Part shown: piece by piece, positions 430 through 12,798 of the stretch
Numbering within the stretch: the first letter of the stretch is position 1
Layout: the number at the start of each line of letters is the position of its first letter
NCBI GenBank assembly: GCA_002369155.1
Contig: DFEM01000096.1
Location: 1 to 20,816 of the forward strand
Origin: Lachnospiraceae bacterium UBA3802
GTDB lineage: Bacteria > Bacillota > Clostridia > Lachnospirales > Lachnospiraceae
Reading direction: 5' to 3'
DNA length: 20,816 nucleotides
Program-made: the position numbers and the translations under genes
Notes under the pieces: model-generated
Database searches by the model: none
Told to the model about the DNA's origin: nothing
What the model saw: only the letters and a program-made list of their open reading frames with translations

Positions 430-465
430 AAAAGACCTATCCTTGCTTCTTTGCAAGGACAGGTC
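430..465 (-). terminator. T-box intrinsic terminator
   Basis: On the minus strand a 13-bp stem (465-453 with 446-434, one G-U pair) closes a six-base loop and is followed by a U-run. Its 5' arm contains the antiterminator strand, as required of a T-box switch. Confidence 0.92.
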
Positions 466-706
466 TGAACTTTTAAACCTGCGGTGCCACCCTGCTTGGT
501 GAATATCACCCTCTTAGCGCATACCAACATATGCCGGATTTGTTTACGGGGTTCCAGCCCCGGCGCCTATACTCCGAATTGCTTCGTTTCCTCTTGCCCT
601 CAAAAGCCCATTCAACTTAACATTTCAATACCGCTTTCTCAGCTACGGCGATTCTCTGTATCCGAAAGAGGATAAGTCTACTTACACTTTTTCATTGGTT
701 TACAAC
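434..706 (-). promoter_or_regulatory. T-box riboswitch, tryptophan specific
   Basis: The leader of trpB2, read on the minus strand, carries the T-box core AGGGTGGCACCGC at 482-494. Stem I can be traced: AAAAG/CTTTT at the base, the AGTAGA bulge, then ACTTA pairing with TAAGT, and the apical AGAGAAT...GCTGAGAAAGCGG motif. The 3' side of the specifier loop reads GAATGGGC, giving UGG (610-608), the Trp codon. The antiterminator pairs GCAGGG (495-490) with CCTTGC (458-453), and the same CCTTGC is the upper part of the terminator 5' arm, so the two folds are mutually exclusive. Uncharged tRNA-Trp would stabilise the antiterminator and allow trpB2 transcription. Left and right limits are approximate. 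Confidence 0.93.
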
Positions 707-758: not shown

Positions 759-2564
759 TCATCTGGGTTTAAGGATTTCGTACACAAAACCGTTGGAACT
801 TACAAATGTATCGACAACTTCGATTTTTGTTCCCGGGAAATGTTCCTCAAAATAGTAATCGAGGAAATCTCTCGTATCAAAATCAACCTGCTGATAAATA
901 ATATAAACTTTGTCTTTTTCGAGCAGCCCTTCTGTGGGAGTCTCAAATCCCCAAGCCTTCATTTTATTGTTATACCAAGGGCTGTTTGGCATCCAGCTTC
1001 CCATGTAAACATAGTTTTCATATGGTTTCTTTTCGAAGGAAAGCGTATCTTCGGTATAGTATAAATGTGACATATCAAAGAAATAGAAATTGTCGGGATG
1101 CGCCGAAAGATAATCTTCCAGTTCGACAAAACAGGTACTCATAGCCCTGGAGCCTTTAATCGTATTGTAATTATTTTTCATGACGGGAATTCCAAATCGG
1201 ATACCCGATGCTGCAATCATCAAAAGCATAATTGCAAATACAAAATTAAAGCCTGCCTTTTCAAAAATATTTTTCTTTTCTTTATCCTTTTTCCTTACAG
1301 GATTTTGCCAAAGTTCATATCTTAAGATAATTGCAATCAAAAGAAGTGCTTCGGCAATATAGATTATCTGCGTAACTCTGAAAGGGTATCTTCCGATCCA
1401 TACAAGATATACCCAGTCAACCATTCTCGCACCAATCAAAAAGCCCAAATCTCTTAAGGCTTTATATCTTTTAAGTAAAAGCGAAAGAGCAAAAACAAAA
1501 AGATATAAAAGATAAACGGGAATATTAATCGGTCTGTCCTGATATTCGAATAAATTAATATTTACTATCCCTTTTATAACACCGACTGTCTTGGAAACAA
1601 AAGAAAGCTTCTCATCTTTTTTATTATTCTTTGAAATTTCGGATAAAGCCTCCATACTGTTTGCATTAATATTTTCATCAAGAATCAAATTGTAATGTTT
1701 TGTAAGGGCTTCATATGAAGATTTCGAAATTCCGAGACTGTCATAAGCGCTTTTATTTTCCTCGTATAACGGAAAACCCGAATAATCCACAATGGATTCC
1801 CTGTCACTGTTGTATTGCCTGTAATCTTTCCATTCCTCTTTTGAATATGCCGCAAAGTCAAGCAAAAAGACTGCAATATTGGTTGCGATGAACAATGAAA
1901 AAACGATAACCGTTCTTTTCAAAAATGTTTTGTCTTTTGATTTTAAAGCATCTAAAAGCAAACCAAGAAATACAATACCGAAAAAAGGAAACAGCATAAA
2001 GAATGCCTTTTGTCTCATGCCTGCTGCCCATGCAGACAATAAAACAAACGGCAAAAGATTAAGAATAAATTCTTTGTTTCCGACTTTTTTATAATCAGTC
2101 GCAGCAAAAAGAAACAATGCTCCCGCCCCGATTATTCCGGTAGCCAAAGTATATTGTGTCATTGCGAAATACTGATAAAAGAAGCTCACAAAAGAGATAA
2201 GGAAAACAACAAAAAGAACCGCCTTTTTCCAAATATTGTCTGAAACAGACAATGTTTTATACATCATTAATACCATGGTAACGGCAATTGATGCGCATAA
2301 AAGAATTCCAAACCAGGGAACGCCGTTGCCTGTAACGGTATAAAGAAGTTTTAATACCAACCCCGAAAGAATCGTCATATGATTAAGATGCGCTTCGGGT
2401 ACTCCCGTCATTTCTCCGGAAGCGATGGTTTTTAAATAGATATTGTCGTTATCAAGTTGAAAAGGAGCAAAAAGCTGCCAAACAATAACAAGTACAAGTA
2501 CTGTTATTGCCGACAGCATAAGCATTAAATATTTGTGTTTTTGATTCTTCTTTTCTTCGATCAT
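759..2564 (-). CDS. Polytopic membrane protein of unknown function, last gene of the aro operon
   Basis: I do not recognise a named family. The 601-residue protein has a basic N-terminal tail, a first membrane helix at about 13-35, then roughly 11 further helices up to about residue 456. There is a large hydrophilic loop at about 237-345 and a soluble C-terminal domain of about 145 residues. The loop after the first helix holds an acidic pair (LDNDNIYL, about 37-44). That layout, many helices with acidic residues in the first outer loop and a C-terminal outer domain, resembles GT-C-type glycosyltransferases; this is only an architectural resemblance. It follows aroF by 19 bases on the same strand, so it is probably cotranscribed with aromatic amino acid genes. 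No transporter signature was recognised, so a transport role is only a guess from context. Confidence 0.85.
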   Translation of the reverse strand: MIEEKKNQKHKYLMLMLSAITVLVLVIVWQLFAPFQLDNDNIYLKTIASGEMTGVPEAHLNHMTILSGLVLKLLYTVTGNGVPWFGILLCASIAVTMVLMMYKTLSVSDNIWKKAVLFVVFLISFVSFFYQYFAMTQYTLATGIIGAGALFLFAATDYKKVGNKEFILNLLPFVLLSAWAAGMRQKAFFMLFPFFGIVFLGLLLDALKSKDKTFLKRTVIVFSLFIATNIAVFLLDFAAYSKEEWKDYRQYNSDRESIVDYSGFPLYEENKSAYDSLGISKSSYEALTKHYNLILDENINANSMEALSEISKNNKKDEKLSFVSKTVGVIKGIVNINLFEYQDRPINIPVYLLYLFVFALSLLLKRYKALRDLGFLIGARMVDWVYLVWIGRYPFRVTQIIYIAEALLLIAIILRYELWQNPVRKKDKEKKNIFEKAGFNFVFAIMLLMIAASGIRFGIPVMKNNYNTIKGSRAMSTCFVELEDYLSAHPDNFYFFDMSHLYYTEDTLSFEKKPYENYVYMGSWMPNSPWYNNKMKAWGFETPTEGLLEKDKVYIIYQQVDFDTRDFLDYYFEEHFPGTKIEVVDTFVSSNGFVYEILKPR

Positions 2565-2583: not shown

Positions 2584-3612
2584 TTAAAGCAAATCCGCAA
2601 TTTCATAGATGAGTTTTTCTGTCTTCTCCCATCCGAGGCAGGGATCGGTGATGGACTTTCCGTAAACGCCGTCGCCGATTTTCTGACAGCCGTCTTCGAT
2701 GTAGCTTTCAACCATGAAGCCTTTAAGGATTTTCTTAACTCTCTCATCATGTCTTGTGGAGTAAAGAACATCTTTGATGATTCTGGGCTGCTCGAAAGGA
2801 TTCTTTCCGGAGTTCGCATGATTGGTATCGATAATAACCGCAGGGTTTGTAAGGTTTCTCTCATCATACGCATCGCAGAGTCTGATTAAATCCTCGAAAT
2901 GGTAGTTGGGCTGGGACTCGCCGTGCTTGTTGGTATAGCCTCTGAGGATTGCATGAGCATAAGGATTTCCTTCTGAATGAACTTCCCATCCTCTGTAAAT
3001 GAATGAATGTGCATTCTGAGCTGCCAGAATACCGTTCATCATAACACTTATATCGCCACTGGTAGGATTCTTCATACCTACGGGCGCATCTATTCCGCTT
3101 GCCGTAAGACGGTGCTGCTGATCCTCTACAGATCTTGCTCCGACTGCAACATATGCAAGCACATCATCAAGGTATTGATAGTTCTCGGGATAAAGCATCT
3201 CGTCTGCACACGCAAAACCGGTCTCTTCGATTGCACGCATGTGCATGTGTCTTGTCGCAATGATACCTTTGAATAGATCGGATTTTTCATTGGGATTGGG
3301 CTGATGAAGCATGCCCTTGTATCCTTCTCCCGTTGTTCTCGGTTTGTTGGTATAGATTCTCGGAACGATAATAATCTTATCGGCAACTTTTTCCTGAATG
3401 GGGCAGAGTCTTGAAATATAATCTATTACACTGTCCTCGTTATCCGCGGAACAGGGTCCGATGATAAGAATCAATTTGTCGCTTCTTCCGGAAAATACGG
3501 ATTCCATCTGTGCTTTTCTGTTTTCAACTAGTTCGCCCATCTTACCGGTCATCGGATACATTTCTTTTAATTCTGCAGGCAGTGCCAGTTTTTTAATAAA
3601 ATTTAGTCTCAT
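2584..3612 (-). CDS. aroF: 3-deoxy-7-phosphoheptulonate (DAHP) synthase, class I AroFGH type
   Basis: DAHP synthase condenses PEP with erythrose-4-phosphate, the first committed step of the shikimate pathway, in the cytoplasm. Counting from the ATG at 3612, GPCSA (from 52, metal-binding Cys54), PRIYTNKPRTTGEGYKG (about 84-100), GARSVEDQQHR (158-168), MKNPTSG (180-186) and DTNHANSGK (262-270) match the AroF/G/H family. The 342-residue length is normal for it. A GTG at 3621 would add three residues. I prefer the ATG because the purine-rich GGGAGAAAGGATA is 23 bases from it but only about 9 if the small hairpin between them folds. The gene is 40 bases behind tyrA and 19 bases ahead of the membrane-protein gene. 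Feedback specificity (Phe, Tyr or Trp) cannot be read with confidence. Confidence 0.95.
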   Translation of the reverse strand: MRLNFIKKLALPAELKEMYPMTGKMGELVENRKAQMESVFSGRSDKLILIIGPCSADNEDSVIDYISRLCPIQEKVADKIIIVPRIYTNKPRTTGEGYKGMLHQPNPNEKSDLFKGIIATRHMHMRAIEETGFACADEMLYPENYQYLDDVLAYVAVGARSVEDQQHRLTASGIDAPVGMKNPTSGDISVMMNGILAAQNAHSFIYRGWEVHSEGNPYAHAILRGYTNKHGESQPNYHFEDLIRLCDAYDERNLTNPAVIIDTNHANSGKNPFEQPRIIKDVLYSTRHDERVKKILKGFMVESYIEDGCQKIGDGVYGKSITDPCLGWEKTEKLIYEIADLL

Positions 3613-3655
3613 TTTCGTCACAGCGAATTATCGCTTATCCTTTCTCCCTTTGGGA
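3613..3655 (-). promoter_or_regulatory. Structured intergenic element, copy A, in front of aroF
   Basis: On the minus strand this stretch reads: a short hairpin TCCC-AAA-GGGA, the purine run GGGAGAAAGGATA, a perfect 5-bp hairpin AGCGA-TAAT-TCGCT, then GTGACGAAA and the aroF ATG. A second copy with the same order stands in front of aroQ. Folding of the second hairpin would bring the purine run to about 9 bases from the ATG, so it may set ribosome access. The function is inferred. Confidence 0.5.
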
Positions 3656-3661
3656 ATACAC

Positions 3662-4537
3662 TTATTTGTTTTTATTGTTCTGATTGAATTTGGATCTTCT
3701 CTTTGTGGAAAGTCTCATCTTTTCTTTAATTGCTTCCTGATCGTCTTTATCGATGAGATTTCTTAGTTGTGTCAGTTCGTTTATAAACAAATCCATCTCT
3801 TTAAGAAGCGGTTCTTTGTTGACATGGAAAAGTTCACTCCACATGTTTTCGTTTATTCTTGCAATTCGTGTAAGGTCTCTGAACGAATCACCCGTATAGT
3901 CCTTTAAATGCTCGTTGTCCTTGCATGTCATAAGCGAAATAGCGATACAGTGAGTAAGCTGCGATACATACGCAATCATCTCATCATGCTCTTCGGGGCT
4001 TAATATGCTGACTTTGTTAAAGCCAAGAATCTGTCCGAGATTTTCGCACCAGAGGATGGCTTCCTCGGTATTTTTATCCGTCGGTACAACAATGTAGTTG
4101 GCATCTCTGAATATTCGATCGTCTGCATTTTCCACACCGCTTGTTTCCTTGCCGGCCATCGGATGTGCCGCTATGAATTCTGCCTTGTCACCGAGTATTT
4201 CCTGAATCTTATATACGATGCAGCTTTTAACACCGGTAACATCCGTCAAGCGAATGCCTTCCTTCATGTTGTCAACATGATTTTTCACCCATTCGATGGC
4301 AGCATTCGGATAGAGCGCAAGTATTATGCAGTCTGCTTCCTTTACGAAAGAAGCCTCATTTTCTTCCTTAAATGTGCCGTCGTCGATAATGTTATTGTCT
4401 ATGGCAAATTTGATTGTATCTTCGCTTTTATCGATGGCAGTCACGCGACATCCAATCCTTTTTAAAGCTTTCGCATAGCTTCCGCCCATAAGGCCGAGAC
4501 CGACTATAAGGACGTTTTGTTTGTTAATCCATTCCAT
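3662..4537 (-). CDS. tyrA: Prephenate dehydrogenase
   Basis: TyrA oxidatively decarboxylates prephenate to 4-hydroxyphenylpyruvate with NAD(P), giving the tyrosine precursor. The N-terminal Rossmann motif GLGLMGGS is at 13-20, with Asp36 at the end of the second strand (AIDKS), which favours NAD. AAHPMAGKETSG (His125) and SQLTHCIA (His196) carry the conserved histidines, followed by SFRDLTRIA. At 291 residues it has the dehydrogenase domain only: the C-terminal ACT domain seen in many Bacillota TyrA proteins is absent, so direct Tyr feedback through that domain is not expected. The tail is strongly basic. The ATG at 4537 starts right at the MEW...VLIVGLG beginning typical of the family; AAGAAAGGG lies about 16 bases upstream, further than usual. 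Confidence 0.95.
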   Translation of the reverse strand: MEWINKQNVLIVGLGLMGGSYAKALKRIGCRVTAIDKSEDTIKFAIDNNIIDDGTFKEENEASFVKEADCIILALYPNAAIEWVKNHVDNMKEGIRLTDVTGVKSCIVYKIQEILGDKAEFIAAHPMAGKETSGVENADDRIFRDANYIVVPTDKNTEEAILWCENLGQILGFNKVSILSPEEHDEMIAYVSQLTHCIAISLMTCKDNEHLKDYTGDSFRDLTRIARINENMWSELFHVNKEPLLKEMDLFINELTQLRNLIDKDDQEAIKEKMRLSTKRRSKFNQNNKNK

Positions 4538-4669: not shown

Positions 4670-5956
4670 CTAATCCGACACGGAAATGCCGAGCTTTTTG
4701 ATATCTTCAAAGAATCCGGGATAACTCTTTCTTACTGCTTCGGCCTCCGTTATTTTGCCTCCTGTTAATGATAAAAGGAGGGATAACGACATTACGATTC
4801 TGTGATCGTTGTGTCCGCAAAGTTCTTCGCTTGGAGTTTGTATTCCGCTTCCGATTTCAATGCTGTTTTCTTCCATGTGTGTTTTTATTCCAAACTTTGC
4901 AAGCTCCTCACACATGACACTTCCGCGATCGCTCTCTTTAATCTTAAGTCTCGCTGTGGAAGTGAATATTCCACCGTTGTTGGCTGCTGCCACTGCAAAG
5001 AGCACGGGTCCGAGATCCGGACAGTCCGCTATGTCAAGCGTGGCCTTTTCAAGAAGAAGCTTCTCGAAATAATCCTTGTATATCTTATCGCCCTGAAGGC
5101 TTTCTTCGTTTAATCCAAGCACCTTAACTTCGCCGCCGATAAGATTAAAAGCATCCAGAAAAGCGGCATTGGAATAATCGCCTTCGACTTCGATGTTTCT
5201 GTTTATGAAACAGCAGCCCTCTTTAACATAAAGAGTATTTTCATCAAGCCACCCGGTATTTATGCCGAACTCGTTTAATGCCTGAATCGTCATATTGATA
5301 TACGATCTGCTTTCAACGGGAGGAATAAGCTTTATGCTTCCTCCTTTTCCTTTAACGGATAATGCAAGAAGAAGGCCTGTTATAAACTGGCTGCTTATAT
5401 TTCCCGCAACCTCAAAATCCGTATCGTTTAACGGACCTTTTATCGCAATTTTATCATCCAGACGTTTAAAGAAACATTCACCGTTTCTGTCATCATCATT
5501 ATTTTGCAATTTTGAACCGTCTGCTGAATTCAGTATACTCTCATAAATTCCGAAAGGTCTTTTTCTTAAAGTTTCGCTTCCGTAAAATTCACTTGTAACG
5601 GGAAGAATCATCGCGATTCCCATAAAGAAACGCATCGTGCTTCCTGATTCGCGACATTCAAATACTAAATGTGTATTATCATCTGCTTTTTTATCTGCAT
5701 ATTCCGCGCCAAAGTATTGATTCAAAATACTGTCTTTTCCGTCGACAAAAACATTTGATCCATCCACTCTGACATTGGCTCCGAGTGTCTTAATACAATC
5801 GATTGTAGCTTTTATGTCTTCCGAAAAATCAACATTGGAAATAACACTCTCGCCCTTTGTCAATGCTGCGCAGATGATGTATCTGTGCGCCATGCTTTTT
5901 GAGGGCGGCGCTTTAACTGTTCCTTTTGCAATTGATTTATTAATTATTTTTTCCAT
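4670..5956 (-). CDS. aroA: 3-phosphoshikimate 1-carboxyvinyltransferase (EPSP synthase)
   Basis: EPSP synthase transfers enolpyruvate from PEP to shikimate-3-phosphate. Family motifs are all present: PPSKSMAHR (17-25, Lys20 and Arg25), RESGSTMRF (102-110), the SSQF region of the second half, KESDR, GHNDHRIVM and the terminal KSYPGFFED. The 428-residue length is normal. A polar insert of about 20 residues rich in Asp/Asn sits near 143-163, where many homologues are shorter. The start ATG follows the stop of the upstream ACT-MBL gene by one base (TAAAATG), and no good ribosome binding site is visible, so translation is probably coupled to that gene. Confidence 0.95.
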   Translation of the reverse strand: MEKIINKSIAKGTVKAPPSKSMAHRYIICAALTKGESVISNVDFSEDIKATIDCIKTLGANVRVDGSNVFVDGKDSILNQYFGAEYADKKADDNTHLVFECRESGSTMRFFMGIAMILPVTSEFYGSETLRKRPFGIYESILNSADGSKLQNNDDDRNGECFFKRLDDKIAIKGPLNDTDFEVAGNISSQFITGLLLALSVKGKGGSIKLIPPVESRSYINMTIQALNEFGINTGWLDENTLYVKEGCCFINRNIEVEGDYSNAAFLDAFNLIGGEVKVLGLNEESLQGDKIYKDYFEKLLLEKATLDIADCPDLGPVLFAVAAANNGGIFTSTARLKIKESDRGSVMCEELAKFGIKTHMEENSIEIGSGIQTPSEELCGHNDHRIVMSLSLLLSLTGGKITEAEAVRKSYPGFFEDIKKLGISVSD

Positions 5957-5957
5957 T

Positions 5958-7397
5958 TTAGTCTACTCTGAGGCTGTATTCCTTTACCTGACCGTGAGCT
6001 CCGAAAACTTTCCATTCTCCGACTCCCAGTCTTTGCATGATTGCCTTTCTCTCTTCAGCGCATAATTGCGGATCGGTATCAACTGACGTCATCAAAACCG
6101 GAGCATATTTATTATACTCAGCCTGCTCGGGTGTCATTTGATGAACATTGACATATATATCTCCCGTAAAAGCTATCTTGCGGGCGTAATCAATAAGTAC
6201 CGTCTCTCCGGGAAGATGTCCGCCCTTGCCCTGATAAACTTCAAAATGCAATTCTTTGAAATCAAAGAATCCTATCTGCTCAAGGACTTCCTCCTGATTA
6301 TGTCTCGTCTCCCCGAGAGTTATTATTTTCTCTGACTTTGCCGGAGAATATAATGTTAAAGTCTTACAGATATTGACATAGGGTTTGTGAAGCGGATTTT
6401 GTTCTCTAAATCCGTTTTCACCGTTTTCTTCAGCCTCAAGACACTCTTTAGTTAGTCCCGAAGCATATATCTCATCAAAAAGATTTAACAATCCGCAATG
6501 ATCGACATCCGCATGCGTCACGAAAATCCTTTTTTTGATATTGTCATAATCCGGAACAATCTTTTTAAATAGAGCCTGCATTTCTTCCTTGTACAATGCA
6601 TATCCGCAATCGACAAAAAGCACTTCATCCATACTTTTAATAATAGCCGTATTGCTTCCGCAGGGAGGCTCAATCAAAGTAACAGAAGTTTTGTCCGTAA
6701 TATCATATCTGCTGATTCTTGGCTTGAATTCTTCTTTTCTGCATTTGGACAAAAGTTCCGCAAATTTGCTTATGCTCTCAAATGTTTTGAAAGAAGATAC
6801 TCCTTTTTCGTCAAGCATCTGCATAATGAGATTGGAATTAACAAGCAAATCGTTCCTTTTTTCTTCGGGAAGATCCGAAAGCTGCATGAGTCCCGATACA
6901 AATGACTGGTAGAAAATACTGTTGTCAAATACTCTTTCGGAATGATTATAATCAATAACTCTTACGGGACAGATTTCCTGTGCTTCCTTAAGAAAATCTT
7001 CGATATTCTGCTCGTTTTCCACAAACAATCCCATTTTGAATGCCTGATAAGACGAGCCGTTTTCCTGCGAACTGATGTATGAAATATTCAATCGATAACT
7101 GTCTATCAATCGAAGAATCCTTGTTACGCTGCCGGGTTCATCCTTTAACATGAATTCCAAAAGCACTATGCTCTTGTTATTCTTTTCGCTTCGTAGATAC
7201 CCGATTTTCTCAAGTTCTATGTCTGCTTTTTTTAATTGTTCTTCTTCGCCTTCGGCATCTATGAAAAGCGTATGCGAATCAATCGCTTTATTGTAGCTGA
7301 CGCGTGTGATATTTATTCCGAACGATGCGAGGCATTCGCTTGCTTTTAAGAAAGCTCCGATATGGTTTGGCATCGTTGTTATATATGTTTTTCTCAT
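5958..7397 (-). CDS. Tandem ACT domain protein fused to a metallo-beta-lactamase-fold domain
   Basis: The 479-residue protein has three parts. Two ACT-like domains occupy about 1-72 and 77-148; the second contains DEPGSVTRILRLI, the usual ligand-loop region. A helical linker (150-235) leads to a metallo-beta-lactamase fold (about 238-479). The metal site looks complete but variant: THADVDH gives His295, Asp297, Asp299 and His300 in place of the usual HxHxDH, followed by His394 (GGHLPGE), Asp413 (FTGD) and His468 (AHG). ACT domains usually bind amino acids and regulate the attached enzyme. The gene lies between aroQ and aroA, 25 bases after the first and one base before the second, so it is almost certainly part of the aromatic operon. 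The substrate is unknown to me; none of the classical pathway steps is left for it. Confidence 0.88.
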   Translation of the reverse strand: MRKTYITTMPNHIGAFLKASECLASFGINITRVSYNKAIDSHTLFIDAEGEEEQLKKADIELEKIGYLRSEKNNKSIVLLEFMLKDEPGSVTRILRLIDSYRLNISYISSQENGSSYQAFKMGLFVENEQNIEDFLKEAQEICPVRVIDYNHSERVFDNSIFYQSFVSGLMQLSDLPEEKRNDLLVNSNLIMQMLDEKGVSSFKTFESISKFAELLSKCRKEEFKPRISRYDITDKTSVTLIEPPCGSNTAIIKSMDEVLFVDCGYALYKEEMQALFKKIVPDYDNIKKRIFVTHADVDHCGLLNLFDEIYASGLTKECLEAEENGENGFREQNPLHKPYVNICKTLTLYSPAKSEKIITLGETRHNQEEVLEQIGFFDFKELHFEVYQGKGGHLPGETVLIDYARKIAFTGDIYVNVHQMTPEQAEYNKYAPVLMTSVDTDPQLCAEERKAIMQRLGVGEWKVFGAHGQVKEYSLRVD

Positions 7398-7422: not shown

Positions 7423-7860
7423 TTACTTTTCTTCGTACTGTAAAAGATAATCAATGGCTTCAAGATATCCGTCCAATCCGTGCCCTGAAATAGTTTTCTG
7501 ACATGCGGCTCTTATATAGCTTATCTGTCTGAAATCTTCTCTTGAATCAACATCCGAGATATGCACTTCAACCATTGGGATTCCTACGGCTTTGGCGGCA
7601 TCGAGAATTGCCACGCTTGTATGTGTATATGCTCCGGGATTTATGACTATACCGTCAATGACTTTATAACTCTCCTGAATCCAGTCAACCAAATCGCCCT
7701 CATGATTGCTTTGCATTATCTGAACATTTACGCCTACCACTTCGGCATAATTTTCTATCATTTCGCAAAGAGATTTATAATCGGTCTTTCCGTAGATATC
7801 AGGTTCTCTGATTCCAAGCATGTTTAAATTCGGTCCGTTGATTACACGTATTGTTTTCAT
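7423..7860 (-). CDS. aroQ: 3-dehydroquinate dehydratase, type II
   Basis: AroQ dehydrates 3-dehydroquinate to 3-dehydroshikimate. The 145-residue size and the motifs GPNLNMLGIREPDIYG (9-24, catalytic Tyr23), SNHEG (51-55), INPGAYTHTSVAI and VEVHISD (His100) are those of the small type II enzyme, which forms dodecamers. Arg106 (DSRE) and the ISGHGLDGY end also match. The ATG at 7860 has only a weak GAAG upstream; a purine-rich GGGAGAGAGGATA lies beyond a hairpin, as in front of aroF. It is cotranscribed with aroE-aroK upstream and the ACT-MBL gene downstream. Confidence 0.96.
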   Translation of the reverse strand: MKTIRVINGPNLNMLGIREPDIYGKTDYKSLCEMIENYAEVVGVNVQIMQSNHEGDLVDWIQESYKVIDGIVINPGAYTHTSVAILDAAKAVGIPMVEVHISDVDSREDFRQISYIRAACQKTISGHGLDGYLEAIDYLLQYEEK

Positions 7861-7912: not shown

Positions 7913-9157
7913 TTATCTCATATTTTCGTATGCGTTTAAAACTTCGTTAACAGTCTCTTCAATTCCCTTGTCGACAATAATCTTAACATCGCATGCGGAA
8001 TTGTAAATCGGAAGTCTTTCTTCGTAAAGCTTCATTATCTTGGCCTTCTCATCCGCAAGAGGCCTGTCGCTTGTCGGAATCAGATCATCGGGATTTCGAT
8101 CAAGGAAGAAAACCGTGCCATTAGCCATAAGGTTCTTTACGTTTTCTTCATTTAAAACAGCTCCGCCGCCTGTTGAAATAATGCTGTTTTTCGCGGATGA
8201 GAGAGATTCGATTACTTCTTTTTCAACATTTCTGAAGTACTTTTCTCCGTCGGTTTTAAATATGTCGGAAATCTCTCTTTTTTCTCTCTCGACTATGAGA
8301 GCATCGGTATCAACAAATGTCCTGCCAAGGCGTTCTGCCAAAATCTTTCCTATTGTGCTCTTTCCGCTTCCCGGCATTCCGGTTAAAACCAAATTGTTAT
8401 TTGAGTCGTATATTTTTTTGTAAATCTCTTCGACTTTTTCTTTTGCTACTTTTTGGCCGGTAAAGAATTCGCATGCCGCAACCGCCTGGTAAACAAGCAT
8501 CTTTAAACCGCTGCAGGCTTTGATACCTCTTTTTTTCGCATCGATTATAAGTCTTGTTCTCAAAGGATTGTATATGACATCAGCTACACCTTCAAGGTTT
8601 GTAAATGCACTCAAATCAATCGGCTTTGAATCAAGATTGGGATACATTCCGGAAGGCGTGGTATTGATAATATATGCACCGTCTGAATGTAACTTGTATG
8701 CGTCTTCATAGGATATTGCGCCGTCTTTGGCACTTCTTGATACCTTACTGAGAAACTCTGCGCCAAGGTTGCTGCAAACGGCATATGCAGTCTTGCTTGT
8801 ACCACCGGTTCCGAGAATCAAAACTTTTTTGCCTTTTATATCAAAACCGTTTTCTTCAAGAAGCATTTTAAGTCCGAAATAATCGGTATTGTAGCCGCTT
8901 AATTTGCCGTCATTGTTGACAACCGTATTCACTGCTCCGATTGAACGGGCTTTTTCGTCAATAAAATCAAGGTGCTTGATAACTTCTTCCTTGTAGGGAA
9001 TCGTAACATTAATGCCCTTGAATTCGCGGCGTGTCATAAAAACATCAAGTCCGTCGCGAGGTATTTCTTTTAATTCATATCCGTAAAATCCGAACTCCTC
9101 GTGAATTACTTTCGAGAAGCTGTGTCCGAGGCGTTCGCCTATAAGTCCGTATTCCAT
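7913..9157 (-). CDS. aroE-aroK: Bifunctional shikimate dehydrogenase - shikimate kinase (AroE-AroK fusion)
   Basis: Two consecutive pathway enzymes are in one 414-residue chain. Residues 1 to about 250 are AroE: GERLGHSFSK (shikimate-binding Ser13, Ser15), NVTIPYKEEV with catalytic Lys56, GYNTDYFG with Asp92, and the nucleotide loop GTGGTSKTA (116-124). Residues about 254-414 are AroK: Walker A GMPGSGKST (260-268), VDTD (282-285), YFR with Arg309, STGGGAVL (328-335), the lid DRPL (364-367) and ERLPIY. Both active sites look complete, so NADPH reduction of dehydroshikimate and phosphorylation of shikimate are both expected. The join is a short charged linker near 240-253. The ATG at 9157 has a weak GGGAT upstream; no alternative fits the N-terminus. 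Confidence 0.96.
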   Translation of the reverse strand: MEYGLIGERLGHSFSKVIHEEFGFYGYELKEIPRDGLDVFMTRREFKGINVTIPYKEEVIKHLDFIDEKARSIGAVNTVVNNDGKLSGYNTDYFGLKMLLEENGFDIKGKKVLILGTGGTSKTAYAVCSNLGAEFLSKVSRSAKDGAISYEDAYKLHSDGAYIINTTPSGMYPNLDSKPIDLSAFTNLEGVADVIYNPLRTRLIIDAKKRGIKACSGLKMLVYQAVAACEFFTGQKVAKEKVEEIYKKIYDSNNNLVLTGMPGSGKSTIGKILAERLGRTFVDTDALIVEREKREISDIFKTDGEKYFRNVEKEVIESLSSAKNSIISTGGGAVLNEENVKNLMANGTVFFLDRNPDDLIPTSDRPLADEKAKIMKLYEERLPIYNSACDVKIIVDKGIEETVNEVLNAYENMR

Positions 9158-9231: not shown

Positions 9232-10344
9232 TTATTTTTGTTCAGTAAAATAATCAGTACCGAATCTTTGCGCAAGCATATCGTAAACGGCAAGTGCGCA
9301 TACCGAATCAACCACGACTCTGGCTCTGTGTATAATCGCAGGATCATGTCTTCCTTCGATTGACAAATCGGAATTTTCAAGAGTGTTTAAATTAATGCTC
9401 TTTTGTTCCTTATAAATTGAAGGTGTGGGCTTAACCGCACATTTAATCGTAATCGGCATTCCGTTTGTTATTCCGCCGTTTATTCCGCCGTTATTGTTGG
9501 TAGCGGTAACGACTTTACCGTTTTCATTTCTGAAAGCATCGTTAAATTCGCTTCCTCTTTTGCATACCTTGTCAAACCCTGCGCCAAACTCGACACCCTT
9601 GATTCCCGGTACCGAGAAAAGGATGTGTGAAAGAATGCTTTCTGCCGAATCAAACCAGGGTTCTCCGACACCTGCGGGAATTCCGATAATTGCCGTCTCC
9701 AAAACTCCGCCGACACTGTCGGAATCTTTTGCAGCCTGAAGGATTGCATCTTCCATTTTCTTTCCCGTTTCCTCATCAAGCACGGAAAAAGTCTTTTTGT
9801 TTATTTCCGAAATAGCTTTGGATAAATCCGCTTTGGAATACTCGTCAAAAGATTTGTCCGTGATATCGGATAACTTATAAATATGTGTTCCTATCTCTAT
9901 TCCTTTTTTGGATAAAGCGCTTAAAGCAATCGCACCGCCTGCAACAATTGCCGCCGTGATTCTTCCGCTGAAATGTCCGCCGCCTCTGTAATCTTCAAAG
10001 CCGTGGTATTTGCAAAGCGCCGTATAATCGGCATGTCCGGGTCTTGCGATTCTTCCGGTCTTATCGTAGTCCTTGCTTCTTGTATTGGTATTCGGAATCA
10101 ATATGCAAAGAGGCGTACCTGTGGTTTTACCGTTAAAAACACCGCTCGCTATCGTGTATTCATCAGCTTCGACTCTGGCTGTGGAGATTGCACCCGAAGG
10201 TCTTCTAAGGGCGAGTTTTTCTTTGATGAATTCTTCATCCACCTCAATACCGGGAGCAAGTCCGTCCAAAACCACTCCGATAAACGGTCCGTGGCTTTCT
10301 CCGAATACGGTTGTCTGTAAACTTTGTCCGAATGTGTTTTTCAT
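9232..10344 (-). CDS. aroC: Chorismate synthase
   Basis: AroC removes phosphate from EPSP to give chorismate, using reduced FMN as a catalytic cofactor. Signatures are TVFGESHG (12-19, His18), RRPSG, RPGHADYTA, YRGGGHFSGRITA (about 119-131), TNNNGGINGGITNGMP and EGRHDPAIIHRA near the C-terminus. The 370-residue length fits the short bacterial form without a fused flavin reductase. AGAGG seven bases before the ATG supports the start. It follows aroB by 30 bases and precedes aroE-aroK by 74. Confidence 0.97.
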   Translation of the reverse strand: MKNTFGQSLQTTVFGESHGPFIGVVLDGLAPGIEVDEEFIKEKLALRRPSGAISTARVEADEYTIASGVFNGKTTGTPLCILIPNTNTRSKDYDKTGRIARPGHADYTALCKYHGFEDYRGGGHFSGRITAAIVAGGAIALSALSKKGIEIGTHIYKLSDITDKSFDEYSKADLSKAISEINKKTFSVLDEETGKKMEDAILQAAKDSDSVGGVLETAIIGIPAGVGEPWFDSAESILSHILFSVPGIKGVEFGAGFDKVCKRGSEFNDAFRNENGKVVTATNNNGGINGGITNGMPITIKCAVKPTPSIYKEQKSINLNTLENSDLSIEGRHDPAIIHRARVVVDSVCALAVYDMLAQRFGTDYFTEQK

Positions 10345-10374: not shown

Positions 10375-11397
10375 CTATAAAAGAAGCAGTTTAAGTCTCG
10401 ACGATAATTCTTCCTTTGTCATGTCTCTTAATTCATATGAACCGATTTTTGACACATATACAGTTGAGATTGTACTGCCGTTTAGTTTTTTATCATGCGT
10501 TACGGCATCCAGCGCTTCGTCAAAATCAAATTCGTATTTTACGGGGATATTAAGTACGTTCAAAATCTTTACTATTCTCTCCTTAACATCCTCATCACAC
10601 ATTACCGTCATTCCCATTCCGACGCATTCGCCGTGAAGCAGTGCTCTGTCGGTATCCTGAAGTGCCGCCTCGACGCCGTGTCCCAGGGTGTGTCCGAAGT
10701 TAAGTACTTTTCTTAGTCCCGCTTCCTTTTCATCCTTTTCTACAACGTCTGCCTTAATCTGAATTGCTTTTCCGATCACATACTCAATATCAAGGTCGTC
10801 GAATTTCTCTGCCTTTTCGAAAATCCCGAAAAGTTCTTCATCGAAGGTAGCTGCCATTTTTATCGCTTCGACAAGTCCGTTGGCCTTTTGTCTGTCCGAA
10901 AGAGTATTTAAAACATTGGGATCTATAAGCACTTTCTTTGGCTGATAAAATGTTCCGACGATATTTTTAACGCCGTTAAAATCAACCGCTGTCTTTCCTC
11001 CGACAGATGAATCAACCTGTGATAAAACCGTGGTCGGAATATTGTAAAAATCAATGCCTCTCATAAAGCAGGATGCAGCAAATCCCGCCAGATCTCCGAC
11101 CACTCCGCCGCCGAGAGCCACAACGCAGTCTTTTCTTGAAAAATTGTTTTCAAGAAGAGCTTTTTCGATGGCTGCAAAACTATCAAGATTCTTGCTTTCT
11201 TCTCCATGTTTTAAAACAAAGAGACTTGCATCTTTGCATTTTGTTTTTAATACATCCGCATACTCCGAAGGCACTCCGTCATCGGTTACAATCATAACCC
11301 TGCGGTTTAAATTAAGTTCTTCGTCTGCTCTTTTTAATATGCCTCTTTCGATTTTGATTTCATAAGCATTTATCGGAAGATTAACTTTTACGATCAT
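10375..11397 (-). CDS. aroB: 3-dehydroquinate synthase
   Basis: AroB cyclises DAHP to 3-dehydroquinate, using NAD and a divalent metal, usually zinc. The NAD-binding GGGVVGDLAGF (96-106), PTTVLSQVDSSVGGKTAV (121-138), and metal ligands Glu177 (GLVEAIK), His236/His240 (NFGHTLGHG) and His255 (LHGECVG) are present. The 340-residue length is slightly short but complete. An AAGGA sits about 10 bases before the ATG. It follows pheA by 18 bases. Nothing unusual was seen. Confidence 0.97.
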   Translation of the reverse strand: MIVKVNLPINAYEIKIERGILKRADEELNLNRRVMIVTDDGVPSEYADVLKTKCKDASLFVLKHGEESKNLDSFAAIEKALLENNFSRKDCVVALGGGVVGDLAGFAASCFMRGIDFYNIPTTVLSQVDSSVGGKTAVDFNGVKNIVGTFYQPKKVLIDPNVLNTLSDRQKANGLVEAIKMAATFDEELFGIFEKAEKFDDLDIEYVIGKAIQIKADVVEKDEKEAGLRKVLNFGHTLGHGVEAALQDTDRALLHGECVGMGMTVMCDEDVKERIVKILNVLNIPVKYEFDFDEALDAVTHDKKLNGSTISTVYVSKIGSYELRDMTKEELSSRLKLLLL

Positions 11398-11415: not shown

Positions 11416-12510
11416 TCAGATTTTTACGTCTTCTATATATGTGCCGATAACCTTAATCATGTTGCATTCTTTTTCAAGGTCTTTTAACATTTCGTTTCCT
11501 TCTTTGGTATCGATATTGCCCTCAACCTCGGTATAGAAATAATACTGCCAGTTTTCGTTCTTCGAAGGTCTGCTTCTTATAACCTTCATGTTGTATCCGT
11601 GTTTACCGAGAATTGCGATGGCATCCGCCAGGGAGCCCGCCTCATCTTTAACCGTAAACATCAATATAAACGCACCCGAATTCTGATTCTTTTTTAAGCT
11701 GTCGGCCTTTCTTGAAAATACAGCAAAGCGTGTCGTGTTTTGCGCACTTTCGTTTATGTCGTAATCAAGGATTGTAAGGCCGTATAGTTTGGCTGCTTCC
11801 TTGCTTGCTATGGCACCGACTGTAACATCATTCTTTTCGGCAATTTCCTTTGCTGCTACTGCAGTGTTTTCTGCCGAGATGCTCTTTAATCCGTTTCTTT
11901 TAATGTATTCGCTGCACTGATCGAGTGCCTGAGGGTGACTGACCACGGTCTTTATCGATTCGAGTGTGCTGTCCTTGATTCCAAGAAGACACTGTGATAC
12001 GCCGAGTTCATATACGCCGTTTACATGAAGGTCTCCTTTGAACATAAGATCCGTTACGGCGCCGACTTCTCCGGCATAGCTGTTTTCGATGGGAAGAACC
12101 GCAAAATCACATTCGCCTTCGCATACCGCATTGTACGCTTCGCCGAAACTTCCGTAAGAAACTCTCGTGGCATCGGGGAGAATTTTTTCAGCGGAAATGC
12201 TTGCAAAAGAGCCCTCGATTCCGCTGTATGCGACCTTAACGCCTTCCATTAATTTATGCTGATAATTCTTGGAGACATTAAGCATCCCTTCAAAGAAATC
12301 CCTGTAATAAACTTCGAATTCGCTGTTTTTTAGTTTGCCCGTGTTTCTTTCGATAAGAATCTTTTCTCTTTCCTTATCGAGAATCGGAAGGCCGTGTTCC
12401 TTTTTGTAGGAAGCGACTTTGGCGCTTATTTCCATTCTCTGTTCAAAAAGATCAATCATCGAAGCATCTATCTTTTCTATTTGATTTCTGAGTTCATCCA
12501 TTTCACTCAT
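11416..12510 (-). CDS. pheA: Bifunctional chorismate mutase / prephenate dehydratase (P-protein)
   Basis: PheA converts chorismate to prephenate and then to phenylpyruvate. Residues about 1-85 are an AroQ-type helical chorismate mutase (LRNQIEKIDASMIDLFEQR start). About 91-265 are the dehydratase, beginning VAYSGIEGSFA and ending with the catalytic NTTRF (258-262, Thr260). About 279-360 form an ACT domain for Phe feedback. In the ACT domain the GALA motif appears as AGSLAD (291-296) and the Phe-binding ESRP as RSRP (312-315). The Glu to Arg change may alter feedback, though I believe it recurs in relatives. This is the first gene of the operon, behind a Phe/Tyr-rich leader peptide. The ATG at 12510 has a GAGGAAG site; the N-terminus is full length. 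Confidence 0.96.
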   Translation of the reverse strand: MSEMDELRNQIEKIDASMIDLFEQRMEISAKVASYKKEHGLPILDKEREKILIERNTGKLKNSEFEVYYRDFFEGMLNVSKNYQHKLMEGVKVAYSGIEGSFASISAEKILPDATRVSYGSFGEAYNAVCEGECDFAVLPIENSYAGEVGAVTDLMFKGDLHVNGVYELGVSQCLLGIKDSTLESIKTVVSHPQALDQCSEYIKRNGLKSISAENTAVAAKEIAEKNDVTVGAIASKEAAKLYGLTILDYDINESAQNTTRFAVFSRKADSLKKNQNSGAFILMFTVKDEAGSLADAIAILGKHGYNMKVIRSRPSKNENWQYYFYTEVEGNIDTKEGNEMLKDLEKECNMIKVIGTYIEDVKI

Positions 12511-12555: not shown

Positions 12556-12589
12556 ATAAAAATAGCACTGTCCCGAATAAGGACAGTGC
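12556..12589 (-). terminator. Attenuator terminator of the aromatic operon
   Basis: On the minus strand GCACTGTCC (12589-12581) pairs perfectly with GGACAGTGC (12573-12565) around the seven-base loop TTATTCG, followed by TATTTTTAT. It stands between the leader peptide and pheA, where it can stop transcription before the operon. Confidence 0.9.
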
Positions 12590-12700
12590 AAACATAATCT
12601 GATATCAGTCGGCATCTATACTTTATTCGGCATGCTTTAAACTCAAATTTTTAAAGTAAAAGGCAAAAAGGCTTACAAAATAGTAGGCCTGAATAAAGTA
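12565..12700 (-). promoter_or_regulatory. Ribosome-stalling attenuator with three competing RNA segments
   Basis: Segment 1 (12700-12687, TACTTTATTCAGGC, over leader codons 16-20) pairs with segment 2 (12631-12619, GCCGAATAAAGTA, over the leader stop) with one bulged A. Segment 2 can instead pair with segment 3 (12580-12573, TTATTCGG) in the terminator loop through 8 bp. A ribosome held on Tyr/Phe codons would hide segment 1 and let 2:3 form, disturbing the terminator. A ribosome finishing at the stop would cover segment 2 and let the terminator fold. The pairings are seen in the sequence; the mechanism is inferred from known leader-peptide attenuators. Confidence 0.75.
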
Positions 12701-12745
12701 ATAAAAACCGTTGTTCAATTTGGAATTAGCGCTGATTGTGTTCAT
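12623..12745 (-). CDS. Phe/Tyr-rich leader peptide of the aromatic operon
   Basis: This 40-residue ORF is too short for routine gene calling. It begins at ATG 12745-12743 behind a GGAGAAAG ribosome binding site and ends at TAA 12625-12623. Residues 13-31 read GFYYFIQAYYFVSLFAFYF: 6 Phe (all TTT) and 5 Tyr, that is 11 aromatic codons in 18. It lies just downstream of a promoter and just upstream of an intrinsic terminator and pheA, the classical position of a regulatory leader peptide such as pheL. The operon makes both Phe and Tyr precursors, which explains the mixed codons. There is no Trp codon. Its stop codon sits inside the segment that can pair with the terminator loop. The product itself probably has no function beyond its translation. 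Confidence 0.87.
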   Translation of the reverse strand: MNTISANSKLNNGFYYFIQAYYFVSLFAFYFKNLSLKHAE

Positions 12746-12768
12746 TGTCTTTCTCCAAATACGCTACT

Positions 12769-12798
12769 ATCTTAATCCGTATGGATGTAAATAGTCAA
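12769..12798 (-). promoter_or_regulatory. Promoter of the aromatic operon leader
   Basis: TTGACT (12798-12793), 18 bases, TAAGAT (12774-12769). Transcription would start near 12762, giving a leader of about 250 bases before pheA. The -35 begins eight bases after the stop codon of the upstream GTPase gene; no terminator separates them. Confidence 0.65.

Follow-up and report, generated by a model that had tools for sequence, protein, structure and literature searches.

The window analysed here, a stretch of 20,816 nucleotides, is contig 46 of the 2.28-Mb draft genome of Lachnospiraceae bacterium UBA3802. It carries a run of ten ORFs on the same strand, with pheA in first position and intergenic gaps of 1 to 132 nt:

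11416..12510, minus strand: pheA, chorismate mutase-prephenate dehydratase (best matches; chorismate mutase domain above its cut-off, prephenate dehydratase models below theirs)
10375..11397, minus strand: aroB (family match)
9232..10344, minus strand: aroC (family match)
7913..9157, minus strand: aroE-aroK fusion, shikimate dehydrogenase followed by shikimate kinase (models below the whole-protein cut-offs)
7423..7860, minus strand: aroQ, type II dehydroquinate dehydratase (family match)
5958..7397, minus strand: ACT-domain / metallo-beta-lactamase protein of 479 aa, the sixth ORF, between aroQ and aroA
4670..5956, minus strand: aroA (model below cut-off)
3662..4537, minus strand: tyrA, prephenate dehydrogenase (models below cut-offs)
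2584..3621, minus strand: aroF-type DAHP synthase (family match)
759..2564, minus strand: ORF of 601 aa, the tenth and last of the run (no family match above cut-off)

Eight of these ten ORFs are recognised pathway genes that lead from the DAHP synthase through the Phe and Tyr branches, and their spacing suggests that all ten are transcribed as a single mRNA. An earlier, sequence-only reading had spoken of ten genes in this aromatic operon; the run of ten ORFs is indeed present, but the sixth and the tenth are not known aromatic genes. A counterpart of the ACT-domain/metallo-beta-lactamase protein was listed in none of the 127 pheA loci compared (tblastn, E 1e-6), and this protein is possibly an aromatic-sensing enzyme. 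A strong 14-bp terminator is found downstream of the 601-aa ORF (window 433-466, minus strand) and likely marks the end of the operon transcript.

Between a GTPase gene located upstream and the start of pheA at position 12510 (minus strand) lies a leader region with the following elements:

12769..12798, minus strand: sigma-70-type promoter, -35 TTGACT, 18-nt spacer, -10 TAAGAT
12753..12756, minus strand: Shine-Dalgarno sequence GGAG, 7 nt upstream of the leader ATG
12623..12745, minus strand: leader peptide ORF, 40 aa, MNTISANSKLNNGFYYFIQAYYFVSLFAFYFKNLSLKHAE
12687..12710, minus strand: region 1, the first aromatic codon cluster, predicted to pair with region 2 when free of a ribosome
12665..12690, minus strand: in-ORF hairpin AGGCCTAC/GTAAGCCT followed by a U-run, similar to a pause hairpin
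12612..12631, minus strand: region 2, GCCGAATAAAGTATAGATGC, the switch strand, which holds the leader stop codon TAA (12625-12623)
12573..12589, minus strand: region 3, terminator 5' arm and loop, the antiterminator partner of region 2
12556..12589, minus strand: intrinsic terminator, GCACTGTCCTTATTCGGGACAGTGC plus TATTTTTAT, stem 12589-12565

The short ORF thus possesses a start codon, a Shine-Dalgarno sequence and clustered Phe and Tyr codons (six and five, respectively, in codons 14-31, FYYFIQAYYFVSLFAFYF), and an intrinsic terminator separates it from pheA. These coordinates bear out the description given in the sequence-only reading, namely a 40-codon ORF with this codon content in 18 residues, set between promoter and terminator directly before pheA. 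Relatives of the leader peptide occur in the protein collection searched (P0002-P0006), all of them without a name.

Judged by PheA, the closest named relatives are rumen Lachnospiraceae MAGs (at most 85% identity) and Lachnospiraceae bacterium G41, an isolate (80%); PheA was present in 49 of the 61 genomes searched, that of the window included. A first survey of 30 pheA loci, which covered 700 nt upstream of the gene, yielded 12 leaders of the window type (group 1, the window's own included), eight aromatic leaders of a second type (group 2), and ten loci with none within this distance. Group 2 stems from the same genus and another PheA lineage and has a different aromatic leader, e.g. MTSKRNAQLNTASAFAFTFFQVCNFFAGLYWRWQFKNTSVSMG. 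The cultured isolate G41 (L093) also carries the group-1 leader. All 12 group-1 leaders of the survey keep the core: in codons 14-31 every substitution is either synonymous or exchanges Phe and Tyr, and such swaps occur at three codons. Precisely nine codons lie between the last aromatic codon and the stop codon in each of the 12, while these codons themselves vary. The TTTGGAG sequence around the Shine-Dalgarno element is invariant in the 12 aligned group-1 sequences, and both promoter hexamers are mostly conserved in the alignment. An aromatic-rich ORF preserved amid changing flanks had been named beforehand as the pattern that would support a leader peptide, and it is the pattern observed here, with the core kept in 12 of 12 leaders and the later codons different.

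At 61 of 127 pheA loci, the 500 nt that precede an aro gene were flagged as holding an aromatic ORF followed by a terminator, and 59 of these loci were kept, so that relatives do carry the conserved ORF whose lack had been named as grounds for giving up the idea. The 59 include three second copies (L134/L105, L135/L049, L136/L051), and among the 127 a few loci were fetched twice and some end just before or inside pheA (e.g. L091, L098, L120, L124) and could show no leader. The flagged ORF of L106 and L183 (one locus, fetched twice) was judged to be no leader, and additional ORFs within pheA (L050, L171) were disregarded; L055 carries a leader but fails the terminator rule of the script. Over 1.67 Mb, the same scan rule picked out 38 further candidates, a rate at which 127 stretches of 500 nt would hold about 1.4 by expectation. 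By their labels, the leader-bearing loci derive from Lachnospiraceae, Oscillospiraceae or Ruminococcus-type bacteria, other Clostridia, and three Treponema/Spirochaetia MAG loci. Four MAGs labelled Treponema/Spirochaetia (L068, L069, L073, L124) possess pheA operons whose PheA proteins are 52-53% identical to the Lachnospiraceae query, and the first three of them carry an aromatic leader; these operons may reflect either horizontal transfer or mis-binned contigs. At L012/L061, a terminator much like that of the leader (GGCACTATCCCAAGGGATGGTGCC) stands directly upstream of pheA, and the 700-nt scan found no aromatic ORF there; this terminator may be left over from an attenuator since lost, or it may simply end the gene upstream. 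A different, Phe-rich leader (e.g. FDFFFAFT, then RRKGDL or RCKGNL) precedes pheA-aroF in L116, L117, L127, L188 and L189 and looks similar by eye to E. coli pheL.

Across the Lachnospiraceae, a PheA match was obtained in 321 of 348 sampled genomes (308 of 333 genera), and we read the scores as two sets, a smaller one of high scores that resembles the PheA of the window and a large common one. An accepted aromatic leader was present in 10 of 23 further high-scoring loci (L167-L189) and in none of 16 loci of the common set (L190-L205). Alignments of the leader peptides matched the 348 genomes 14 times (A1, own genome included) and four times (A2) at E<=0.01; nine of the matched loci (L032, L033, L035, L036, L042, L044, L046, L047, L048) were scanned for aromatic ORFs, the ORFs of three loci were listed, and L034, L037-L041 and L043 were left out of this inspection. 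Among the nine, only L032 (G343) proved to be a leader, located before pheA-aroB. The leader hence looks patchily distributed within the Lachnospiraceae and, judging from this sample, is likely absent from most genera.

The codon content of the leaders matches the products of the operons that they precede. The mean share of Tyr among the Phe and Tyr codons is 0.44 in 11 representatives whose operon includes tyrA versus 0.17 in 12 without it (Mann-Whitney p 3.4e-4), with representatives and the borders of the aromatic runs set by hand and five truncated-operon representatives left out; once related tyrA-less representatives are merged to six, p is 0.012. L180, a Tyr-rich leader without tyrA, is a counterexample, and the tyrA-less status of L073 is uncertain since this locus ends at aroF.

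Region 2 of the leader RNA has two possible partners: region 1, made up of the first aromatic codons, and region 3, which is the 5' arm of the terminator together with its loop. These alternatives were assessed in A4, an alignment of 18 diverged leaders with hand-picked rows; the structures were taken from the window's own sequence, so that the tests favour them. Over the 18 leaders, the terminator is paired in 98.8% of cells and the antiterminator, which excludes it, in 88.2%, versus 36-52% for slid controls of the antiterminator. The covariation score of either structure was reached by none of 500 shuffles and exceeds that of all slid versions. Both sides have changed at four terminator pairs (59 of 500 shuffles reach four) and at seven antiterminator pairs (16 of 500 reach seven). 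The 1:2 pairing, which involves the regulatory codons, is weaker, with 81.2% of cells paired and a covariation score reached by eight of 500 shuffles. At single loci, duplex tests gave p<0.05 against shuffles for 2:3 in 10 of 26 and for 1:2 in 10 of 26; within group 1, the 1:2 signal was obtained in the window, L050 and L052 and not in L056, and it is absent or weak in L077, L112 and L129. The single-locus test found no 2:3 pairing signal in L116, L127 and L188, and the Phe-rich leader of these loci may thus use another switch or have an independent origin. The antiterminator explains why the AAGUAUAGaUGC sequence downstream of the stop codon is conserved: in the 5' arm of the terminator, its AUAG finds CUGU/CUAU as partner and its UGC finds GCA; in L103 and L105 the UGC/GCA pair is replaced by CGC/GCG.

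By inspection, the stop codon lies inside region 2 in both group 1 and group 2, so a ribosome at the stop codon would cover this region, as a masked fold of the window likewise indicates. When the RNA was folded only through region 3, ribosome masks at codons 14, 17 and 22 gave the antiterminator, while a mask at the stop codon gave none. With masks at codons 27 or 31, region 1 emerges behind the ribosome and re-pairs with region 2, so that a clear role as sensor is left to the first codon cluster alone. In the full-length leader RNA, the terminator is part of the most stable fold at all six ribosome positions tried; hence, the switch would have to be kinetic, and readthrough would require trapping of the antiterminator. 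Such kinetic trapping is usual in attenuators.

All 18 A4 leaders contain AGGCYTRC...GYARGCYT, followed by a U-rich stretch, inside the ORF, and 93.1% of the cells of this hairpin are paired. Its versions are TAC/GTA, TGC/GCA and TGT/ACA. In its support, 7 of 500 shuffles reach the paired fraction and none reaches the covariation score, and the slid controls point the same way; the two pairs changed on both sides, in contrast, do not exceed what shuffles give (315 of 500 attain this number). Similar hairpins fold within the ORFs of L073, L082, L083, L129 and L131, and a weak one in L180. We infer that the hairpin and its U-run probably pause the polymerase so that the ribosome can catch up. 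The upkeep of the hairpin stem also explains why A-[CY]-x-x-[VAT]-[SG] is conserved in the peptide. One could view the leader product as a functional small membrane peptide, with the aromatic stretch as its transmembrane segment and a terminator that merely limits operon expression; the peptide is hydrophobic, and its conservation across lineages extends to the non-aromatic Q/K-A-x-x-x-[VAT]-[SG]. However, these non-aromatic residues are the very positions of the hairpin, whose stem stays paired while the encoded residues change from Tyr/Val to Cys/Ala and to Cys/Thr, the stop codon lies within the antiterminator strand, and the Tyr content follows tyrA, which together render a membrane peptide very unlikely.

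The conservation of some non-aromatic residues could equally be expected of a nascent chain that arrests the ribosome upon binding free Phe or Tyr, in the manner of TnaC, instead of reporting on charged tRNA. Yet no arrest motif common to the listed leaders was discerned by eye, Phe and Tyr replace each other at three codons within group 1, and arrest by an end product would need the opposite wiring in a biosynthetic operon; we therefore consider such a sensor highly improbable.

A covariance model built from A4 (R1) was searched against 53 sources, of which 36 carry a leader, one (L066) lacks it and 16 served as controls. It matched 20 of the 53 at E<0.002, each time at the leader; the window and L111 had been used in building the model. 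Among the 34 left-out leaders, R1 recognises 18 at this threshold: group 2 and its relative (L128-L133), the Oscillospiraceae-type L079, L081, L082, L084 and L085, the Spirochaetia MAG L073, and L094, L100, L107, L113, L179 and L180. L176 (E 0.015) and L109 (E 0.63) were matched weakly, and 14 of the 34 were unmatched at E<=1 (L068, L069, L075, L083, L115, L116, L127, L169, L171, L177, L178, L184, L188, L189), so that these 14 are either diverged or independent. None of the 16 control loci was matched at E<=1, and the one off-target match (L113, other strand, E 0.12) probably arose by chance. In the 348 sampled Lachnospiraceae genomes, where stricter filters applied and weak matches were lost, R1 found three (own, G343 and G014). 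Judged by these matches, the leaders would in part form a single RNA family.

In all five loci examined for group 2, a TrpB-like gene (trpB2) follows aroF at a distance of about 40-90 nt, and the group-2 leader carries two Trp codons; the three loci scanned for a T-box between aroF and trpB2 (L129, L130, L132) yielded none. L131, a relative of group 2, has neither trpB2 nor a Trp codon. Elsewhere, a T-box stands between aroF and trpB2 directly downstream of the aromatic operon (L050:16233-16480, below the gathering score at E 6e-19, and L112:13987-14228), and T-box matches are placed likewise in the genomes of L054, L061 and L093. In all five of these T-boxes UGG follows GAA, and the aromatic run of the leader is free of Trp codons in L050, L054, L093 and L112. 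A longer reading of some group-1 leaders, MFVWRK, has one Trp codon, which overlaps the Shine-Dalgarno sequence. In L066 and L110, trpB2 lies downstream of aroF at about 73 and 33 nt, respectively, and the 700 nt before pheA hold no acceptable aromatic leader; these loci thus speak neither for nor against a role of the Trp codons. Single Trp codons occur in L064, L107 and L115, which have no trpB2 after aroF, and also in the truncated loci L067, L178 and L184. Since Trp codons and a close trpB2 coincide in just one leader-bearing lineage, this coincidence is an anecdote and not a statistic.

T-box RNAs sense tRNA directly, without translation of a leader, and they were detected in all 31 genomes of the genus searched, in 30 of them above the family cut-off. 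Their occurrence in these bacteria, including before trpB2 beside the aromatic operon of relatives, invites the thought that the terminator before pheA is controlled without leader translation by a T-box, an RNA-binding protein or a riboswitch. At the window leader, however, no Rfam family reaches its gathering cut-off, the T-box model RF00230 gives no covariance-model match, and the eight sub-threshold Rfam matches (E 0.06-9.9) comprise neither a T-box nor a leader-peptide family of Proteobacteria; at gathering scores, T-boxes are likewise absent from the 16 control and 11 leaderless loci. A protein-binding site would, moreover, not account for the codon content of the leader, and control of this kind seems to us most unlikely.

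As regards chance, none of 200 dinucleotide shuffles of the window gave an ORF with 11 Phe/Tyr in 18 residues (the best reached 10, in two shuffles), while the real window has one, and the leader RNA folds at -55.7 kcal/mol versus a shuffle mean of -36.8 (z -4.65), better than all 200 shuffles. The idea of an accidental ORF beside a terminator that simply ends the GTPase gene upstream, to which only the AT-rich nature of Phe/Tyr codons and of the surrounding stretch lends itself, is therefore contradicted by these shuffles, by a promoter-like site downstream of the GTPase gene and by a core that changes solely through synonymous or Phe/Tyr substitutions, and can practically be dismissed.

We consider it very probable that the leader region is a ribosome-mediated transcription attenuator. 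The comparison of sequences documents its ORF, its terminator, the retained alternative pairings and a codon content that tracks gene content, and the parallel with pheL and trpL drawn in the sequence-only reading has held up on these grounds. What we infer beyond this is the transcription start, the stalling of the ribosome, the readthrough and the role of pausing. RNA polymerase would start a few bases past the -10 box, a ribosome would initiate the leader peptide, and the in-ORF hairpin with its U-run would hold the polymerase until the ribosome has caught up. With ample Phe-tRNA and Tyr-tRNA, the ribosome would reach the stop codon inside region 2, the terminator would form and transcription would stop before pheA. 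Scarcity of either charged tRNA would stall the ribosome on codons 14-23 and mask region 1; the freed region 2 would then pair with the terminator 5' arm and loop as an antiterminator, and the aro-phe-tyr genes would be transcribed. An untranslated leader would pair its regions 1 and 2 with each other and form the terminator.

The pheL-pheA and trpL attenuators of Gammaproteobacteria comprise a translated, codon-rich ORF and the 1:2, 2:3 and 3:4 pairings. The window leader resembles them in its short ORF rich in regulatory codons, predicted to be translated, in its predicted alternative pairings, with weaker support for 1:2, and in a stop codon so placed that a ribosome finishing translation would cover region 2. 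Unlike them, it mixes Phe and Tyr codons, precedes an operon that unites pheA, tyrA and the shikimate path, contains a separate in-ORF hairpin with a U-run and belongs to no Rfam family above cut-off. Amino-acid operons of Bacillota are usually said to be under T-box or protein control, and the sequence-only reading had accordingly considered a translated leader notable in this phylum. This view holds only in a weaker sense, for leader-peptide attenuation is not confined to Proteobacteria. One report describes a leucine-rich attenuator peptide of the S. aureus ilv-leu operon with a terminator and an antiterminator, supported by mutants, and predicts such peptides in Lactococcus and Streptococcus (PMC5794164). 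Like the attenuator proposed here, it is a case of leader-peptide attenuation in Bacillota, but it serves branched-chain amino acids and hence represents another class and another operon (PMC5794164). A second report places uORFC-13-1 before aroF on the basis of 24 examples, solely from Acholeplasma and environmental sequences, and proposes attenuation for it (PMC8632094). Compared by description, it shares with the window leader an aromatic-pathway gene, an upstream ORF with Phe codon(s) and a terminator directly 3' of it; it differs in its position before aroF and in the mention of at least one Phe residue (PMC8632094). In the B. cereus group, operons for tyrosine biosynthesis are preceded by a T-box (PMC2494555). 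It serves the same purpose, in that an RNA leader adjusts aromatic biosynthesis to one particular amino acid, but the window leader gives no T-box match. A statement from 2005 held classical attenuation of aminoacyl-tRNA synthetase genes to be absent in Firmicutes (PMC1262725). A literature search by title and abstract, which covered subscription papers in small part, found no description of a pheA leader peptide in Clostridia. The pheA leader element hence appears to be new, with its priority not certain, whereas the type of mechanism is already known in Bacillota.

More tentatively, and with somewhat less than even confidence, we propose that the leaders represent an undescribed homologous family of attenuator RNAs over the pheA operons of several families of gut Clostridia, having reached Spirochaetia by transfer. 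Its codons would have been retuned upon gain or loss of branch genes, with Tyr codons accompanying tyrA and Trp codons appearing when trpB2 joins without a T-box, and the in-ORF hairpin with its U-run would act as a translation-sensitive pause or early terminator.

Bacteria that use T-boxes elsewhere, as all 31 genomes of the genus searched do, thus appear to run their main aromatic operon by a translated leader, and relatives put a T-box with a UGG specifier right beside this operon. The relation between leader codons and operon genes offers a natural experiment on the evolution of attenuators, for which a cultured isolate, G41, is available.
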